Positions 11,808 to 61,317 of a stretch of 61,524 nucleotides of DNA are shown here, piece after piece. The stretch is from Halanaerobiales bacterium. GTDB taxonomy: Bacteria > Bacillota > Halanaerobiia > Halanaerobiales > M55B127. The notes beneath the pieces are model-generated. The model had not been told where the DNA came from. It saw nothing but the letters and a program-made list of their open reading frames with translations, and did not search any database. The translations under genes and the position numbers were made by a program. The stretch is taken from the NCBI GenBank assembly GCA_018334565.1, contig JAGXLU010000008.1, forward strand, positions 1 to 61,524. Reading direction: 5' to 3'. How positions within the stretch are numbered: position 1 is the stretch's first letter; each line of letters begins with the position of its first letter.

Positions 11808-11884
11808 CGCGGGGTGGAGCAATCTGGTAGCTCGTCAGGCTCATAACCTGAAGGTTGTCGGTTCGAATCCGGCCCCCGCAACCA
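11808..11884 (+). tRNA. tRNA-fMet (CAU), initiator
   Basis: A 77-nt tRNA with encoded CCA and anticodon CAT at 11842-11844. It has the initiator hallmark, an unpaired C1 opposite A72 (5' CGCGGGG, 3' CCCCGCA), so it is the initiator rather than an elongator tRNA. Confidence 0.93.
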
Positions 11885-12918: not shown

Positions 12919-13052
12919 AATATTAATACACTCCAATAATCAGATTTATCTTCTATTATTAAATTCTATGTTTCAAACTCTATTCCTTCTTAACATCAGT
13001 TATATTTACTTTATATTTTTTTTATTATATAATATAAAAAAGAAGGAGGGGA

Positions 13053-14546
13053 GTGATTGCAATTTATACACCTAAAAAAATCAAGAATATTTTATACATA
13101 ATGAGTCCAATTTTTATTATAATGGGCATCGGATTTTTAATACCAATTTTATTTTGTATATTTTATAATGAAGCTCATATATATTATAAATCTTTTTATA
13201 TACCCTCACTTTTATCTTTTATTTTAGGAACAATATTTTATCTGTTTAAAGACGATGATTTTAATTTGGATTTAACCAACAGTATGTTAATAGTCGGCTT
13301 ATCTTGGATAGTTGTTTCACTTATTGGTGGATTACCCTTTATGATTGGTTTAAAGAAAAATTTTATAAATGCTTTTTTTGAATCTGTTAGTGGATTTACA
13401 ACAACCGGTATAACAGTATTTCAAAGCTTGGATACAATGCCCCATTCTATTTTGTTTTGGCGGAGTTTAATTCAATGGTTTGGCGGGCTTGGTATATTAA
13501 CATTCTTTTTATTTATTACATTTAGAAGTGAAAGCGATCTATGGCAGTTATTTACAGCTGAATCTCATAAAATTGATACTACACGACCGGTGCCTAATAT
13601 ATTCAGGTCGATAAAAATACTGTGGTTAATCTATGGTTTCTTTACCATTTTAGAGATTATCATACTTATTATTTTACAGCTTTCACCATTTGATGCATTA
13701 CTACATTCTTTAACAACTCTTTCCACAGGTGGGTTTTCTAATTATGATGTAAGTATAGCTCACTTTGCACAGACAGGACATCCCTATTATATTATCATAG
13801 AATATGTAATTATATTTTTTATGCTGGCTGGAGGCATAAATTTTTTGATTCATTTTAAGGTATTTAAGGGAAATGTTAAAGAATTATTTCATAATATTGA
13901 AATGAGATATTTCTGGGGCATTATCACTACTGTTTTAATTTTAATAATGACAGCTAAATTTTTTGATCATTCCCTGTATCTCAATAACTTTGAGGTAGTT
14001 TTGAGAAAGAGTTTATTTCAAATTGTTTCTATAATGACTACGACTGGATATGCAACTGAGGCATTAACTTCTTCTTTTTTCCCTGCACTGGCCCGTCAAT
14101 TATTTTTGTTTTTAATGTTAATAGGAGGTTGTGTGGGTTCTACATCCGGTGGGATTAAAGTTATTAGATTTGCTATTTTAAATAAACTATTTGGTAGAGA
14201 GATCAAGAAATTATATTTACCTAATAGGGCTATTATGCCTTTAAAGATAGAAAAGAAATTAATACCCAGGGATGAGATATATAAGATATCAGCTTTGTTT
14301 TTTATCTGGATAATTATGGTTTTATTAGGAGGATTAATTACAGCTTTATTCTCTGATCTTGACGCCCTGCAGTCTATATCTGGTATGTCTTCAGCGATGT
14401 CTAATATAGGGCCATTTTACTTTTCGGTAGAAAAGATGGCTTCTTTACCAATTATCGTTAAATTAAGTTATATTATAGGTATGCTGGCTGGAAGGTTGGA
14501 GATACTACCGATCTTTATAATTTTTACTAAAAAAGCTTGGCAATAG
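13053..14546 (+). CDS. trkH: Potassium uptake protein TrkH
   Basis: The K+-translocating membrane subunit of a Trk system, 497 residues, with repeated TM-pore-TM units. The selectivity-filter-type loops are visible as SGFTTTGITVF, TLSTGGFSNYD, TTTGYATE and the GSTSGGIKVIRF region. The start is unsure. The only canonical start that keeps the conserved N-terminus is GTG at 13053, just two bases after AGGAGG. An in-frame ATT at 13056 or 13062 would be better spaced. It is followed 12 bases later by trkA, forming a matched pair and heading a five-gene run to 17337. K+ uptake fits salt adaptation. Confidence 0.92.
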   Translation: MIAIYTPKKIKNILYIMSPIFIIMGIGFLIPILFCIFYNEAHIYYKSFYIPSLLSFILGTIFYLFKDDDFNLDLTNSMLIVGLSWIVVSLIGGLPFMIGLKKNFINAFFESVSGFTTTGITVFQSLDTMPHSILFWRSLIQWFGGLGILTFFLFITFRSESDLWQLFTAESHKIDTTRPVPNIFRSIKILWLIYGFFTILEIIILIILQLSPFDALLHSLTTLSTGGFSNYDVSIAHFAQTGHPYYIIIEYVIIFFMLAGGINFLIHFKVFKGNVKELFHNIEMRYFWGIITTVLILIMTAKFFDHSLYLNNFEVVLRKSLFQIVSIMTTTGYATEALTSSFFPALARQLFLFLMLIGGCVGSTSGGIKVIRFAILNKLFGREIKKLYLPNRAIMPLKIEKKLIPRDEIYKISALFFIWIIMVLLGGLITALFSDLDALQSISGMSSAMSNIGPFYFSVEKMASLPIIVKLSYIIGMLAGRLEILPIFIIFTKKAWQ

Positions 14547-14558
14547 GAGGTAGACAAA

Positions 14559-15233
14559 ATGTATATTATAATAGCAGGTGGAGGAGTGGTTGGAAGTTCA
14601 ATCACAAAAAAATTGATAAGGGACCATGATGTTGTTGTAATAGATGAGAAGCAGAGCGTTGCTGAAAAAGTTTATGCAAAATATGGGGCAGTTAGTGTGG
14701 TAGGAAATGCTACCAATATAGATGTATTAAAAGATGCAGGCATAAAAAAGGCTGAGGTAGCGATTGGTGTTATGGATACAGATTCAAATAATCTATCTTT
14801 TACCCTTCTGGCCAAAAATTTTGGTGTTAAAAAGATATTAGTCAGGATGAGAAATCCTGAGTATAAGAACGCTTACGAAATGGCGGGCGCTACAAATGTT
14901 GGTGCAGTAAATGAAATGTTAGTCGATAATTTTATAATAGACATAGAAGAACCGAGTATCAGAAAAGTAATATCGATTGGAGAAGGCAATGCAGAGGTAT
15001 CTATAGTCACTTTAAATGGAAATTTTGTTAGATCTGGTCATACGGTTTCTCAGATAGTAAATAGTGAAGGATTTCCTACAGACTGTGTAATTGCAGGTAT
15101 ATTTGATCAAGATTCACGCAAGTTGAGAATACCAAAAGGTGATACAAAAATATATAAAAATGACCAGATATTTTTGGTTGCAACCAGAGAAAATATGGAA
15201 AAAGCAGCTGATTTTCTCTTAAATAAAAAATAA
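14559..15233 (+). CDS. trkA: Trk system regulatory subunit TrkA (half-size)
   Basis: A cytoplasmic gating subunit with an N-terminal RCK (Rossmann) domain starting MYIIIAGGGVVGSS, where the Gly-x-Gly-x-x-Gly nucleotide site is clear, and acidic residues ending beta2 (VVVIDE). A C-terminal TrkA-C domain spans about 135-220. At 224 residues it is a single RCK unit, as in KtrA-type proteins, and must oligomerise. It binds NAD(H) or ATP and controls the TrkH pore encoded just upstream. An AGGAGG site precedes the ATG. A second, divergent copy is at 42014-42661. Confidence 0.93.
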   Translation: MYIIIAGGGVVGSSITKKLIRDHDVVVIDEKQSVAEKVYAKYGAVSVVGNATNIDVLKDAGIKKAEVAIGVMDTDSNNLSFTLLAKNFGVKKILVRMRNPEYKNAYEMAGATNVGAVNEMLVDNFIIDIEEPSIRKVISIGEGNAEVSIVTLNGNFVRSGHTVSQIVNSEGFPTDCVIAGIFDQDSRKLRIPKGDTKIYKNDQIFLVATRENMEKAADFLLNKK

Positions 15234-15247
15234 AGGTGGTGATTATT

Positions 15248-15595
15248 ATTTATCGTATTAACTCTTTTAAATTTGGACAAATTGAGATAAATGATAAAAT
15301 CTATCAAAATGATATTATAATATATCCGGATAAATTGGTTGATGACTGGTGGAGAGATGAAGGACATCGCCTTCATAAAAAAGATTTAGCTGATTTAGCT
15401 GATTATCAGCTTAATTTAGTCATCATTGGGACAGGAGCAAGTGGCAGAATGAAGGTGGATATAAAATTAAAGCAGTATTTTGATGAACATGGCATAGATT
15501 ATTATATTTCGACAACAAATAAAGCTGTAAAAAAGCATAATAAGCTGCTCTCCAGTGACAAAAAAGTATTAACAGCTTTGCATTTAACTTGTTAG
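15248..15595 (+). CDS. Mth938-like (DUF498) domain protein, probable AUU start
   Basis: A small cytoplasmic protein matching the Mth938-like family: a FKFGQIEINDKIYQNDIIIYP beginning (seen as FKFGQIEIND), then DDWWRDEGHRLHKKDL and VIIGTGASGRM. The function of the family is unknown. No ATG exists. The canonical alternatives are GTG at 15236 or 15239, but these lie inside the extended ribosome site (AAAGGTGGTGAT). Three in-frame ATT codons follow (15242, 15245, 15248), and the last is 8 bases from the site. I therefore set the start at 15248, provisionally. It sits between trkA and a nitrilase and is likely cotranscribed. Confidence 0.8.
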   Translation: MYRINSFKFGQIEINDKIYQNDIIIYPDKLVDDWWRDEGHRLHKKDLADLADYQLNLVIIGTGASGRMKVDIKLKQYFDEHGIDYYISTTNKAVKKHNKLLSSDKKVLTALHLTC

Positions 15596-17340: not shown

Positions 17341-18603
17341 CTATTCTGAGAGTATATACTTATTTAGTTTATTTGCTAAGTTATCTGGTATATAGGCATC
17401 AATAAATATAAATTCGTTCTTATACTTTTCTTTTTCCACAATACCGCGATTATATAATTTTTCTATAATATTTGCCTGAGTATAAGGTATTTCTAATGAA
17501 TATCTGGACATAGATTCTTCAACAAAATTCGTTAATTTATTAATTAATATTTCTTGATTAATATTATGTTCTGCAGATATAAAAATAGCTTCTGGATGCT
17601 TAATCTCAAGATCTCTTTTCTTCTGTGAATTGATTAGATCTATTTTATTAAAAACTTTAAGGATTGGTTTATCCTGGATACCCAGTTCAATTAACTCACT
17701 TTCGATTACCTTTATCTTGCTTTCAATTTGTGAATCACTTGCATCTATAATGTGTACTAGTAGATCTGCCTGATTTATTTCTTCTAAAGTAGATCTAAAA
17801 GAAGCAATAAGTTGATGAGGCAGATTTTTGATAAACCCAACGGTGTCTGTAATAACAATATTTTTCCCGATGGGTAATTGATAACTCCTTGCCCTGGAGT
17901 CAAGAGTTGCAAAAAGTTTGTCTTCAACTAGTGAATCATCATCGGTTAAAAGATTAAGGATACTTGTCTTACCGGCATTTGTATATCCGATTAGTGAGAT
18001 TATTGGATCTTTTCTGCTTTTTCTCTGGATTTCACGGTTGTTTTTTATTTTTTTAAGTTTTTCTTTCAATCGATAAATTCTTTTTTCAATTCTACGGCGG
18101 TCAACCTCAAGTTTGGTTTCACCAGGCCCCCTGGTACCAATACCCCCTGCTAATCTAGAAAGTTCAGTTCCGCGACCAACCAATCTGGGCAAGAGATATT
18201 CAAGTTGTGCTAATTCCACCTGAATTTTACTTTCCTTACTTTGTGCATGGAGGGCAAAAATATCCATAATTAACTGATTACGATCTAATATTTTAGTATC
18301 TACCTTTTCTTCAATATTTTTAAGTTGAGCAGGTGAAAGTTGATTATCAAAGATAACCAGATTTATTTGATAGTTGTCAACTATGTCTTTAATATTTTCT
18401 AGATTACCCCGTCCAATATAGTAGGCTGGATTAATTTTGTTCATTCTGTAATTAAAGAATTTAATTGAATTTACACCAGAAGTATTGGCAAGACGTGCTA
18501 ATTCTTTTATAGATTCTTTATCACTACTGACCAGTAAGGCATTTTCTTTTTTATCTTTAACCTCGTAGAGTTCTTTTTCCTCTTTTTTAAAATTAATAAT
18601 AAT
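17341..18603 (-). CDS. hflX: GTPase HflX (probable AUU start)
   Basis: A ribosome-associated GTPase that rescues or splits stalled ribosomes. The central HflX region has VGRGTELSRLAGGIGTRGPGE in two pieces (LVGRGTELSRL, IGTRGPGETKLE). The G domain has GYTNAGKTS (G1), DTVGFIKNLP (G3), NKIDL (G4) and SAEH (G5). The first ATG (18444) would begin at NKINPAYYIGRG and cut off the normal N-terminus. Upstream in frame, conserved HflX sequence continues (ELYEVKDKKENALLVSS, KELARLANTSGVNS) back to four ATT codons directly after AAAAGAGGTGA. There is no ATG, GTG or TTG, and an in-frame TGA overlaps the ribosome site. An ATT start gives about 420 residues, the usual size. ATT at 18606, 18603, 18600 and 18597 are the options; I chose 18603. 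Confidence 0.9.
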   Translation of the reverse strand: MIINFKKEEKELYEVKDKKENALLVSSDKESIKELARLANTSGVNSIKFFNYRMNKINPAYYIGRGNLENIKDIVDNYQINLVIFDNQLSPAQLKNIEEKVDTKILDRNQLIMDIFALHAQSKESKIQVELAQLEYLLPRLVGRGTELSRLAGGIGTRGPGETKLEVDRRRIEKRIYRLKEKLKKIKNNREIQRKSRKDPIISLIGYTNAGKTSILNLLTDDDSLVEDKLFATLDSRARSYQLPIGKNIVITDTVGFIKNLPHQLIASFRSTLEEINQADLLVHIIDASDSQIESKIKVIESELIELGIQDKPILKVFNKIDLINSQKKRDLEIKHPEAIFISAEHNINQEILINKLTNFVEESMSRYSLEIPYTQANIIEKLYNRGIVEKEKYKNEFIFIDAYIPDNLANKLNKYILSE

Positions 18604-18606
18604 AAT

Positions 18607-18617
18607 TCACCTCTTTT
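18607..18617 (-). promoter_or_regulatory. Ribosome binding site that fixes the hflX start
   Basis: AAAAGAGGTGA matches the extended complement of the 16S 3' end (AAAGGAGGTGA). It lies immediately before four consecutive in-frame ATT codons. The TGA at its end is in the hflX frame, so translation cannot begin upstream of it. Confidence 0.8.
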
Positions 18618-20016: not shown

Positions 20017-20885
20017 GTGACTATTTAATTCGAGTTCTTACCAAAAATAAACAGATCAGGGGGCTGGCTATTAGGTCAACCAAACTTGTAAAAAAGGCTC
20101 AACAGCTTCATAATGCTACTCCTGTTGCTACAGCTGCCCTGGGTAGAACTTTATCTGCTGCAGCTATGATGAGTATAATGGAAAAATATGGAAAGATAGG
20201 AATTAAAATAATTGGAAATGGTCCTATAAAAAGAATAATTACAGAGGCAGATACCAATGGACATGTTCGAGGATATGTCGGCAATCCGAGAATTGATCTG
20301 ATGATCAATGAACAAAGCAAGTTGGATGTAAAAAAAGCAGTAGGTAAAGGACATCTATATATAAGGAAAATAATGGGTCTAAAAGAAAATTATGAAAGCA
20401 AAATAGAACTCATAAGTGGTGAAATCGGAGAAGACCTGACATATTATTACACTCAGTCTGAGCAGATACCGTCTGCAGTTGGTCTAGGGGTTTTGATTGA
20501 TACAGATCTTTCTGTAAGGTCTGCTGGTGGCTTTATATTACAATTATTACCTGAAACCTCAGATGAAATAATCACAAAATTAGAGAAAAATTTAAAAAAT
20601 GTTAGGTCTGTTAGTCGATTGATTGAAGGGGGTAAGACCCCAGAGCAGTTATTAGATATAGTTTTAAAGGACTTTTCTTATAATATTACCTCAAAAAAAG
20701 AAGTTAAGTATAAGTGTAATTGTAATAAAGAAAAGAGTCTAGAAATAATTGACACATTAAGTACTGAAGAAATAAAACAACTACTAAAGGAAGAGGGCTG
20801 TGTTGAAATTACTTGTCATTACTGTAATACAAAATATTGTTATGACAAAATGTATTTGCAAGAAAATTTAGAAAGGGAGTGGTGA
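20013..20885 (+). CDS. hslO: Redox-regulated chaperone Hsp33
   Basis: A cytoplasmic holdase activated by oxidation. It has an N-terminal Hsp33 core (AAALGRTLSAAAMMS) and IKRIITEADTNGHVRGYVGNP in two recognisable parts. The C-terminal redox switch has Cys-x-Cys (KCNCNKEK) and Cys-x-x-Cys (CHYCNTKYC), which bind zinc when reduced. At 290 residues the length is normal. The start overlaps the patatin stop and its stop overlaps the beginning of the next frame. Its place beside oxygen-defence genes in the wider window fits an anaerobe facing oxidative stress. Confidence 0.95.
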   Translation: MSDYLIRVLTKNKQIRGLAIRSTKLVKKAQQLHNATPVATAALGRTLSAAAMMSIMEKYGKIGIKIIGNGPIKRIITEADTNGHVRGYVGNPRIDLMINEQSKLDVKKAVGKGHLYIRKIMGLKENYESKIELISGEIGEDLTYYYTQSEQIPSAVGLGVLIDTDLSVRSAGGFILQLLPETSDEIITKLEKNLKNVRSVSRLIEGGKTPEQLLDIVLKDFSYNITSKKEVKYKCNCNKEKSLEIIDTLSTEEIKQLLKEEGCVEITCHYCNTKYCYDKMYLQENLEREW

Positions 20886-21982
20886 TTATCTCAAAAATAC
20901 TTGAAAGTAAATTTTTTAAAGTTTGTTTGGCTATAATATTAATTTTAGTTATTATTATTTTGGTTAAACAGGTCACATTTTTTATCAAGACCTTTAGAAT
21001 TATCACTTCATTATTTATTATACCAATGCTTTTAGGGGGATTTGTTTATTACTTAATTAGGCCTATGGTAGATTTCCTTACAAAGTACGTCAAATACAGG
21101 CAGGTAGCAATGTTGATCAGTTTTATTTTTTTAATCGGCTTGGTTGTCTTTGTAATATATTTCGGTGGAAATATAATAACTGAACAATCCAGAAATCTTG
21201 TCAAGCAATTTACCAACTACTATTATTCAGACCTACAATTACCAGAAGAAGATAACTTCTTTTTTGAAGTTGGCACACAAATTATGGAGTATTTGGAAAG
21301 ATTTAATATACAGGAGAGGTTTTCGAGCTTTTTAGAAAATTTATTAGAAATTATAAAAAATAACATTTTCGGTATATTCACAACTTTAACAAATATTGGG
21401 ACTGTAATTATATTAATACCCTTTGTTGTATATTATCTTCTTAAAGATGACCATAAAATAAAGGAATCATTTTTATTATACTGCCCTACAAATAAAAAAG
21501 ATGATATAGATAGGCTCTTAACCAAGATTGATATAACTTTATCTAAATACATCAGAGGGCAGGTCTTAATTGCTTTTATATTGGGTGTTTTAACTTATAT
21601 TGGTTTTATAATTATTGGTTTGTCTAATGCTTTAATTCTGTCTGTCATTGTTATGGTTACTTCATTAATACCGTTTTTAGGCCCTATTTTGGGGATCTTA
21701 CCGGCAGTATTTATTGGTATGTCACAAAGTTTGCTGATGGTGATCAAAATCATCTTGGTTTTACTTATAGTTCAGCAGATAGAGGGCAATATAATTCAAC
21801 CTAATGTCCAGGGTTCCAGGTTAAAAATTCATCCTCTGGTAGTAATATTTATGGTATTGATATTTATAACTCTATTTGGCTTTATAGGGGCATTATATGC
21901 TGTACCAACTTATGCAGTAGCTAAAGTTATTTTGTCAGAATACTATGGGAAAATAAATATCGAGTACTGTAAAGATGAATAG
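20879..21982 (+). CDS. AI-2E/PerM-family permease
   Basis: A polytopic membrane protein of about 365 residues with the family layout. Two or three N-terminal TMs are followed by a soluble loop (about 110-150), then TMs including the conserved IRGQVLIAFILGVLTYIG and VTSLIPFLGPILGILPA (split as SLIPFLGPILG). QIEGNIIQPNVQGS follows. Family members export AI-2-like signals or act as Na+/H+ antiporters, so the substrate is open. GTG at 20879 or 20882 lies inside the ribosome site (GGGAGTGGTGAT). An ATT at 20885 is a possible alternative start. It overlaps hslO and the next gene. Confidence 0.88.
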   Translation: MVIISKILESKFFKVCLAIILILVIIILVKQVTFFIKTFRIITSLFIIPMLLGGFVYYLIRPMVDFLTKYVKYRQVAMLISFIFLIGLVVFVIYFGGNIITEQSRNLVKQFTNYYYSDLQLPEEDNFFFEVGTQIMEYLERFNIQERFSSFLENLLEIIKNNIFGIFTTLTNIGTVIILIPFVVYYLLKDDHKIKESFLLYCPTNKKDDIDRLLTKIDITLSKYIRGQVLIAFILGVLTYIGFIIIGLSNALILSVIVMVTSLIPFLGPILGILPAVFIGMSQSLLMVIKIILVLLIVQQIEGNIIQPNVQGSRLKIHPLVVIFMVLIFITLFGFIGALYAVPTYAVAKVILSEYYGKINIEYCKDE

Positions 21983-27997: not shown

Positions 27998-28618
27998 CTA
28001 ATTATTATTGATGAATACTGTTCCGAGAGTACCAGTTTGGGAAAACTCTTTAAATGCCTTTATCATATTACCTTGTTCATAATGAATAATACCTAAAATA
28101 AGGTGAGAAAATTTATTATTTTTACTTTCTATGGCTCTATTCGCTTCTATTAAGGCATAATTATAGTTTTTAAGCTCTAAATGAACTGCGGCTAAAAAAT
28201 TACGTATATTATAGTTTTCAGGGGTTAAATTTAGGATTTTTTCGAAGTATTTTGCAGCAAAGTGGTAGTCTTCTGTAATTACACCATAAAATGCAGCATA
28301 ATTTAAAAATAATATTTCATCAGGTATTTTAGGTTGTGCCTTTAAATAAGGTTCCAATATATTGATGAATTCATCTATATCAAAATTATCTCCAAAATCA
28401 TCTATCATTTTATAGAAGCTTTTTATTTCTCCCAAATTTACCATAGCTATTGCTAAATTATAATTAGCCATAATATTATTTGGATTTTTTGTTACTATTT
28501 GATTATTCTCATCCTTCATTTCCTTCCAATCAGGCACTTCTACCGCCTGGGATAAAGAAGCTGTTGCAAGTAATATTAAAATAATTATATATATAATTTT
28601 ATTACTTTTTTTAAAAAT
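27998..28618 (-). CDS. Exported TPR-repeat protein, probable AUU start
   Basis: A protein of about 207 residues with a hydrophobic signal segment (KIIYIIILILLATASLSQA) and helical pairs in the C-terminal half that look like TPR units (DYHFAAKYFEKILNLTPEN, YNYALIEANRAIESKNN). No catalytic feature is seen; it is likely a protein-interaction factor outside the membrane. The TTG at 28627 directly touches GAGG with no spacing. An in-frame ATT at 28618 is nine bases away and gives a typical signal peptide starting (M)FKKSNKI. It lies between dapL and udg in the same run. Confidence 0.8.
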   Translation of the reverse strand: MFKKSNKIIYIIILILLATASLSQAVEVPDWKEMKDENNQIVTKNPNNIMANYNLAIAMVNLGEIKSFYKMIDDFGDNFDIDEFINILEPYLKAQPKIPDEILFLNYAAFYGVITEDYHFAAKYFEKILNLTPENYNIRNFLAAVHLELKNYNYALIEANRAIESKNNKFSHLILGIIHYEQGNMIKAFKEFSQTGTLGTVFINNN

Positions 28619-28635
28619 TTTAATCAACCTCGTTT

Positions 28636-29808
28636 TTAAGTATTGTAAATAAAATTGCTTTCTTCAATTCTATTTATTGCCTCTTTAATCCTATTAGACT
28701 TAACTGTTAGAGCAATTCTTAGATAACTTTCGCCATATTCTCCCCAGCCAATTCCAGGTGTAAAGAACACGCCGGTTTTCTTAAACAACTTTTTAGAAAA
28801 CTCAGATGATGTTGTATTTTCTGGAACCTCCACCCATAAATAGAAGGTGGCTTTATTGGTCTTTATATTCCAGCCTAATTCTGCTAAACCATCTACAATC
28901 AAATCTCTTCTTTTTTTATATAGTTTTCTCATTTCTATAATACTTTTCTTAGAATTAGATAATGCCTCTATTCCAGCATATTGGATTGCTTCAAATATTC
29001 CAGAATCAATATTTGTTTTTAAGCGGCCTAATGCTTCTACTACATCCTTATTACCACAGGCCCATCCTATTCTCCATCCTGTCATATTAAAGGGTTTTGA
29101 TAAAGAATTAAATTCTACTGCTACATCTTTTGCCCCTTCTACTTTTAGGATACTATGTGGGACATGTTTGTCTAAATAGATATCGGTATAGGCTGCATCA
29201 TGGGCAACTATAATATTATATTTTTTTGCAAAAGCAATAACCTCTTTAAAAAAATCGAGACTGGCTACAGCGCCGGTTGGATTGTTGGGGTAGTTTAAAA
29301 AGAATATTTTTGCCTTTTCAGCAGATTCTACTGCAATATTTGCAAGATCAGGTAAAAATCCATTCTCATTTTTAAGAGGAACCATAATAGTATTGCCATT
29401 TGCAAGAAGTATACTTGTCTTATAGACAGGGTATCCTGGATCTGGAATTAATGCACAATCACCAGGGTTGATATAACATAACGGTAAATGAGCTATACCT
29501 TCTTTTGAGCCTATTAATGAGACTACTTCTGTATTTGGATCTAGATTTACATCGAATCTATCTTTATAATAATTACTTACGGCTTTCCTATATTCAACTA
29601 GTCCTTCATAGGAAGGATAACTGTGTGTTGTCGGATCCTGGACAGCTTCTCTCATTTTGTTGACAATATTTTTTGGAGTTGGTTGATCTGGATCACCAAT
29701 CCCAAAGTTTATTACATCCATTCCTTCTGATTTTGCATTATTGATCATCTTATCTATTTCAGCAAACAAATAAGGTGGCAAATTTTTTATACGATTTGAA
29801 TTTTCCAT
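28636..29808 (-). CDS. dapL: LL-diaminopimelate aminotransferase
   Basis: A PLP-dependent fold-type I aminotransferase that makes LL-diaminopimelate from tetrahydrodipicolinate in lysine and peptidoglycan synthesis. It has an N-terminal signature (NLPPYLFAEIDK, FGIGDPDQPTP), a LNYPNNPTGAVA segment, the PLP Lys in SLSKPFNMTGWRIGW and a C-terminal Arg in SYLRIALT. The 390 residues are typical. The function is supported by the adjacent dapF, which takes the product LL-DAP. AGGAGG precedes the ATG. Confidence 0.92.
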   Translation of the reverse strand: MENSNRIKNLPPYLFAEIDKMINNAKSEGMDVINFGIGDPDQPTPKNIVNKMREAVQDPTTHSYPSYEGLVEYRKAVSNYYKDRFDVNLDPNTEVVSLIGSKEGIAHLPLCYINPGDCALIPDPGYPVYKTSILLANGNTIMVPLKNENGFLPDLANIAVESAEKAKIFFLNYPNNPTGAVASLDFFKEVIAFAKKYNIIVAHDAAYTDIYLDKHVPHSILKVEGAKDVAVEFNSLSKPFNMTGWRIGWACGNKDVVEALGRLKTNIDSGIFEAIQYAGIEALSNSKKSIIEMRKLYKKRRDLIVDGLAELGWNIKTNKATFYLWVEVPENTTSSEFSKKLFKKTGVFFTPGIGWGEYGESYLRIALTVKSNRIKEAINRIEESNFIYNT

Positions 29809-59767: not shown

Positions 59768-61303
59768 TTATTTTGCATACTCAATTTGTCTAGTTTCTCT
59801 AATAACAACAACTTTTATCTGTCCCGGATAATTAAGGTTATTCTCTATTTCTTTTTTGATATCTCTCGAAAGTTTGCTGGCCTTTGTATCGTTAATTTTA
59901 TCTGATTGAACGATTACTCTAATTTCACGACCAGCTTGTATTGCATAAGCATTATCGACACCGTTAAATGAGTTACCAATATCTTCTAACTCTTCTAATC
60001 TTTTAATATATGCTTCCAATGTTTCTTTTCTAGCTCCTGGTCTGGCAGCTGATATAGCATCTGCGGCAGCTACTAAAACTGCTTCTACAGTTCGAAAATC
60101 AACATCACCATGGTGTGCTTCAATTGCATGTATGACACCTTCTGATTCTCCAAATTTACGGGCTAAATCAACACCAATATCAATATGAGGTCCTTCTACC
60201 TCCTGGTCAATGGCTTTCCCAATATCATGAAGTAGTCCACCTCTTTTAGCCAATGTGGAGTCTGTTCCAAGTTCATCAGCCATTACTCCAGCTAAAAATG
60301 AAACTTCCAGAGAGTGCTGTAAAACATTTTGTCCATAACTTGTTCTAAATTTTAAACGTCCTAAATATTTTACAAGCTGAGGATCAAGTCCATGTACTCC
60401 AGAATCAAATGTGGCCTGTTCACCCACTTCTTTAATTTGGTTATCAAGTTCTTCTTTGGCTTTCTCGACCATTTCTTCAATTCTAGCAGGATGAATTCTG
60501 CCATCAATGATTAGTTTTTTTAGTGCAATTCTTGCTACTTCTCTTTTGATCGGATCATAACCAGAAATTACAACAGCTTCCGGTGTATCATCGATGATGA
60601 GATCAATACCTGTCAAACTCTCTAAGGCCCTAATGTTTCTACCTTCTCTTCCAATGATCCTACCCTTCATTTCATCATTGGGTAAGTCAACAACGGTAAC
60701 AGTGGTTTCAGAAACATAATCCCCGGCACATCTTTGGATGGCTGAAGAAATAATTTCACGGGCTTTTTTATTTGATTCTTCTTTAGCTTCTCTTTCTTTT
60801 TCTTTAATCATTTTAGCATATTCATGATCGAGTTCATCTTCCATTTTGGATAATAGATATTCTTTTGCCTCACTGTGTGATAAATTGGAAATCATTTCTA
60901 GTTTTTTAATTTCTTTTTCTTTTATTTCTTGAATTTCTTCTTGTTCTTTTTCAACTTCATTGAGTTGTTTTTTTAGTTTGGTTTCTTTTTTATCTAAAGA
61001 TTCACTTTTTTTATCAAGTGTTTCTTCTCTATGCATTAAACGGTCTTCCAGACGCTGAAGTTCATTTCTTCTTTTTTGGCTTTCACGGTTGGCATCTTCT
61101 CTAATTTTTTGGGCCTTTTCTTTAGCTTCAAGAGTAATTTCCCTAATTTTAGATTCTGCTTCCCGTTCTGCTTCTTCCAAAATCTTATGCGATTCTTCTT
61201 CAGCAGACTGAATCCGGGCTTCCGCAATAAACTTTCTAATAAAGTAACCAATAATTAATCCCGGGACAAGGGATATGATTACTATAAAAAGTGTATTATA
61301 AAT
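59768..61303 (-). CDS. rny: Ribonuclease Y (probable AUU start)
   Basis: A membrane-anchored endoribonuclease that initiates mRNA decay. It has an N-terminal TM ([20 protein letters not shown] region), a long charged coiled coil (about 25-200), a KH domain ([22 protein letters not shown], motif GREGRNI), an HD domain with HDIGKA and the C-terminal EIRVIV. About 511 residues. The only canonical in-frame start, GTG at 61312, is part of the AGGAGGTG ribosome site itself. ATT at 61303 is eight bases from that site and gives the usual short N-terminus, so I use it. Confidence 0.95.
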
Positions 61304-61311
61304 TATTTTCA

Positions 61312-61317
61312 CCTCCT
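61312..61317 (-). promoter_or_regulatory. Ribosome binding site that decides the rny start
   Basis: AGGAGG, continuing as TGAAAATA-ATT. The exbD site reads GGAGTGAAGATA-ATG with the same spacing, so by alignment ATT occupies the start position in rny. Confidence 0.7.

Follow-up and report, generated by a model that had tools for sequence, protein, structure and literature searches.

The hflX gene of this Halanaerobiales bacterium raises the question of where translation begins when a ribosome-binding site is followed by none of the canonical start codons. AUU starts are discriminated against by IF3, and output from them is reduced. The textbook gene with such a start is infC, and an autoregulatory loop has been shown for infC of Escherichia coli. 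Stalled 70S ribosomes are the substrate of HflX, which splits them; IF3 is an anti-association factor acting on free 30S subunits (PMC9067457).

The DNA analyzed here (the window, 61,524 nucleotides) carries hflX on the minus strand in an open frame at 17341-18606, with its stop codon at 17343-17341. Upstream, the frame is closed by a TGA (18609-18607) that is itself part of the ribosome site, AAAAGAGGTGA. This TGA is followed by ATT ATT ATT ATT AAT TTT AAA AAA GAG GAA AAA GAA CTC TAC, and the earliest in-frame ATG, GTG or TTG is an ATG (18444) located 54 codons downstream. A preliminary description of the locus had reported four ATT codons and no canonical start between the TGA and this ATG, and the sequence agrees. 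It had also argued that a start at ATG 18444 would cost conserved residues of the HflX N-domain. This holds, because the match to that domain (PF13167; 18516-18253, model positions 2-89, E 1.8e-29, 103.3 bits) already begins at 18516, and the ATG would remove part of it. The product matches TIGR03156 (GTP_HflX) with 430.8 bits against a cut-off of 216.75; a full HflX N-domain and a GTPase domain are thus both present, which places it among the HflX GTPases. An AUU start at 18600 would yield a full-domain protein of 419 residues, in line with the normal length of about 420 that had been proposed. The predicted Shine-Dalgarno (SD) helix has an energy of -14.4 kcal/mol here and in the genus (simple stacking). 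Folding of the start region revealed no structure (z 0.38), and a scan for promoters gave no hit on the strand of hflX and no more hits than in shuffled sequences.

Table 1. Positions of the hflX and rny features within the window
Feature	Position	Strand	Remark
hflX coding region from the likeliest AUU start	17341..18600	-	419 aa
Likeliest hflX start, ATT	18598..18600	-	Third ATT of the run, 9 nt after GAGG
Alternative hflX start ATTs	18603-18601; 18597-18595	-	6 nt and 12 nt, respectively
hflX Shine-Dalgarno site, AAAAGAGGTGA	18607..18617	-	Contains the TGA that closes the frame
First canonical in-frame hflX ATG	18442..18444	-	Within the conserved N-domain; not conserved in the genus; rejected as start
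rny coding region from its ATT start	59768..61303	-	Predicted start at 61303-61301

Five genomes of the genus were available, including the sister genome G003 (95% identity) and three at 76-79%, and hflX lacks a canonical start in all of them. The codons that follow the SD site read ATT ATT ATT ATT, CTT ATT ATT ATA, or AGT AAG ATT ATA. The third codon is the sole position with ATT in all five genomes and, because it is the only ATT of the run that they share, it is the likeliest start. G001, G002 and G004 have no counterpart of ATG 18444; in these genomes the first in-frame canonical codon comes at index 113, 113 and 37, respectively. Between the hflX start and the ATG, pN/pS was 0.03-0.35 in ten genus pairs, and on this comparison the codons ahead of ATG 18444 are under amino-acid selection, as expected if they are translated. 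The preliminary description had proposed a comparison of hflX upstream regions in relatives, and had named a sequencing error that removed a canonical start as a finding that would overturn its reading. ATT proved to be conserved in the genus and in most genera of the class, and such an error is excluded by the occurrence of the same feature in five genomes. AUU, most likely that at 18600-18598 and preceded by a good SD site, is therefore well supported by comparison as the predicted start codon of hflX; no other reading accounts at once for the ribosome site, the selection on N-terminal codons and the pattern in relatives.

For the class survey, we searched for hflX in 59 genomes and then compared the start regions. 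SD sites were placed by complementarity alone, without start-codon information, and the in-frame codon nearest the normal spacing was read. Divergent hflX copies with 36-41% identity (G013, G022, G025, G053, G054, G057 and G058) were set aside as a different form; these have ATG starts, mostly at 5-6 nt. Among the 47 loci of the main form, the SD-anchored codon was ATT in 32, ATA in one and canonical in one, and ATT, ATC or ATA occupied neighboring positions in 0-10 of the 47. Enrichment of these three codons at the start distance was strong when the phylogenetically related loci were treated as unrelated (Fisher p about 1e-22). ATT is common in these AT-rich genomes; it accounts for 53% of Ile codons in these hflX genes, versus 32/33 at the start. 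At a few loci the automatic reading is wrong, and two genera with ATG (G039, G042) are one codon off. By genus, as tallied from the listings for 23 genera, the start was ATT in 15, ATA in one, TTG in two, ATG in two, and TTG or ATA in one, with no call for two.

Variation around the start points in the same direction. In family f8, the codon preceding the hflX ATT varies (TTG, TTG, TTT, TTA, ATA) and the ATT is constant. In family f3, the SD site at the ATT has about -9 to -16.6 kcal/mol and is, without exception, stronger than that of an internal ATG lying 12-13 codons downstream. Candidate starts inside the SD site, i.e., an in-frame ATG in some f5 genomes and a TTG in two f8 genomes, were rejected as they are not conserved, whereas the ATT is. 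The features of a gene with a conserved AUU-type start are thus found in hflX: no canonical codon at the SD-defined start, a near-cognate codon at SD spacing in relatives, and a strong or extended SD site. Conservation of the putative AUU start of hflX spans the order Halanaerobiales and reaches outside it. Some members of the class use TTG or ATG (G014, G039, G042 and family f10), so AUU is, as judged from these genomes, not indispensable for hflX in the class.

In a sample of the phylum, the hflX start was canonical in most genomes. Near-cognate candidates elsewhere in the phylum were ATT in G146, ATA in G180, ATC in G139 and in G173 (read by eye), ATT or ATA in G060, and CTG in G083, and none of these six genes has a canonical codon among its first 18. 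Neighbor searches around G139 and G132 covered three genomes each. A separate observation concerns family f44 (L198, L221), in which long-form hflX may start at a conserved ATC that follows the SD by 8 nt; GTG and ATG codons lie only within the SD itself.

The window contains a second case, rny, which encodes RNase Y. Its open frame (59768-61315, minus strand) has a start region, TAGGAGGTGAAAATA-ATT, with a very strong ribosome site. Across the order, ATT lies exactly 8 nt after the SD in all 30 rny loci compared, and in other Bacillota ATT, ATC or ATA occurs at 7-9 nt in about 22 of 27 loci (manual count). An in-frame GTG within the SD site was excluded as a start, as a TAA separates it from the ATT in G015. 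In Bacillus subtilis, rny has an AUG start (PMC10303841). On these comparisons, rny is arguably a stronger candidate for an AUU start than hflX, and hflX and rny both belong to a small group of genes with a predicted conserved AUU start.

Among the control genes, infC, as known elsewhere, started with ATC or ATT in all 30 class loci, and with ATC/ATT in this genus; obg was canonical in 29/30, and era began with ATG or GTG in all 30 (one ATG was rejected by the script for a weak SD). Of 254 ORFs classified in a sample of about 350 kb from this genome, 234 (92%) had a canonical start with an SD, and AUU is therefore no general replacement start.

Several further loci deserve mention. In this genome, obg (G000:C93, L240) has ATT where the sister G003 has ATG, with an in-frame GTG three codons upstream. 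A trkH-type potassium transporter gene (13038-14546, plus strand) has ATT with an adjoining GTG; trkH has ATT or ATC in all five genus genomes, with no canonical start at the SD in the other four, and mostly TTG or ATG elsewhere in the class. At 15227-15595 (+), 20846-21982 (+), 27998-28663 (-) and L264 6128-6952 (-), the best-spaced codon after the SD looks like ATT/ATC, and GTG/TTG occur only inside the SD. The initiator tRNA-Met gene (11808-11884, plus strand) shows C1xA72 and A11:U24, with A29:U41 where the anticodon stem normally has the first of its three conserved GC pairs. This AU/GC/GC stem is present in G000 and in the sister G002 (L346), and A29:U41 may bear on start fidelity.

What would such a start do? 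AUU pairs imperfectly with fMet-tRNA, and IF3 would be expected to discriminate against the hflX start. HflX, a ribosome-splitting rescue GTPase, would then be held low, at about a tenth of the output of an AUG start by analogy with AUU/AUA starts of Staphylococcus aureus. On this simplest reading, a shortage of IF3 compared with 30S subunits, or less stringent checking of start codons, would raise its output, together with that of IF3 and RNase Y, whose genes here begin with AUC/AUU and AUU, respectively. The most probable role of the hflX AUU is low, IF3-sensitive initiation, and sensing of IF3 by this start is plausible given the AUC/AUU starts of infC in these genomes. We consider the full reading, an AUU start together with low, IF3-sensitive initiation of HflX, to be probable. 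A broader proposal, in which a conserved Bacillota AUU-start regulon (infC, rny, hflX and lineage-specific genes) lets IF3 availability co-control initiation fidelity, mRNA decay and ribosome rescue, is put forward only tentatively.

The main rival holds that the hflX AUU merely sets a constant low expression and that IF3 is not a signal. In S. aureus, expression from AUU/AUA starts reaches about 10% of that from AUG, and cvfC1-AUU acts without medium dependence (PMC13009471); moreover, relatives with TTG or ATG hflX starts exist. However, weak SD sites or GTG/TTG would suffice for a constant brake, yet the codons retained in infC, rny and hflX are ones that IF3 discriminates against, and they come with strong SDs; we regard this account as rather unlikely, though a serious competitor. 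A generally relaxed start selection in the lineage, e.g., via A29:U41 of the initiator tRNA, would allow AUU starts to arise and persist by drift. The obg difference from G003, the trkH starts throughout the genus and the AU/GC/GC stem in G000 and G002 are consistent with it, but ATT is kept in hflX and rny across many families while era and obg remain canonical, and the 92% of sampled ORFs with canonical starts also argue against it; we find it improbable.

Translation from ATG 18444, with the upstream codons untranslated, has in its favor that this is the first canonical start. Yet G001, G002 and G004 lack the ATG, its use would remove part of the HflX N-domain, pN/pS stays below 0.36 in the upstream codons, and in family f3 the SD of the internal ATG is always weaker than that of the ATT, which together make this reading very hard to maintain. 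Loss of a canonical start through sequencing or assembly error is the least credible explanation: no support for it was found beyond an assembly of 94 contigs, and independent genomes, five in the genus and many in other families, share the feature.

An AUU start of hflX would have practical consequences, as gene finders restricted to ATG, GTG and TTG will predict a shortened HflX, or a wrong start for RNase Y, in these organisms. That AUU is conserved in several families offers a testable case in which the factor that splits ribosomes and the principal nuclease of mRNA decay would be wired to start-codon scrutiny like infC. If true, this would extend a control loop so far described chiefly for IF3. 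The data suggest an unusual, tunable AUU start common to a few genes of translation and RNA decay.

A literature search, conducted mostly outside subscription journals, found no description of an AUU start in hflX or of its link to IF3-sensitive initiation, and titles and abstract openings of papers on RNase Y, AUU and start codons made no mention of an AUU start for rny. Neither hflX nor rny is among the genes with known non-canonical starts in the literature found (infC, pcnB, cvfC1, ccpN, citZ, and lepA in two species). An AUU start of lepA, like that of hflX, is needed for the full length of a ribosomal GTPase; it is known from Bacillus licheniformis and Borrelia burgdorferi, and, unlike hflX, these are isolated genomes in which the start was inferred from length, with no conservation shown (PMC1780047). 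In E. coli pcnB, which encodes poly(A) polymerase, the AUU start is cited as limiting expression (Binns and Masters 2002, cited in PMC13009471). Such AUU-limited expression of an RNA-decay gene, as rny is here, resembles our proposal, although gene and lineage differ. The S. aureus genes cvfC1 (AUU), ccpN (AUA), citZ (AUA) and infC (AUA) share with hflX and rny conserved non-canonical starts, extended SD sites and membership in Bacillota; hflX and rny are not part of that set, and the evidence is experimental there and comparative here (PMC13009471). Finally, HflX is not IF3, so any effect at hflX would, unlike that at E. coli infC, be a putative cross-regulation. The likeness to E. coli infC lies in a conserved near-cognate AUN start with a good SD in a translation-factor gene, and infC of this class also begins with ATC/ATT.
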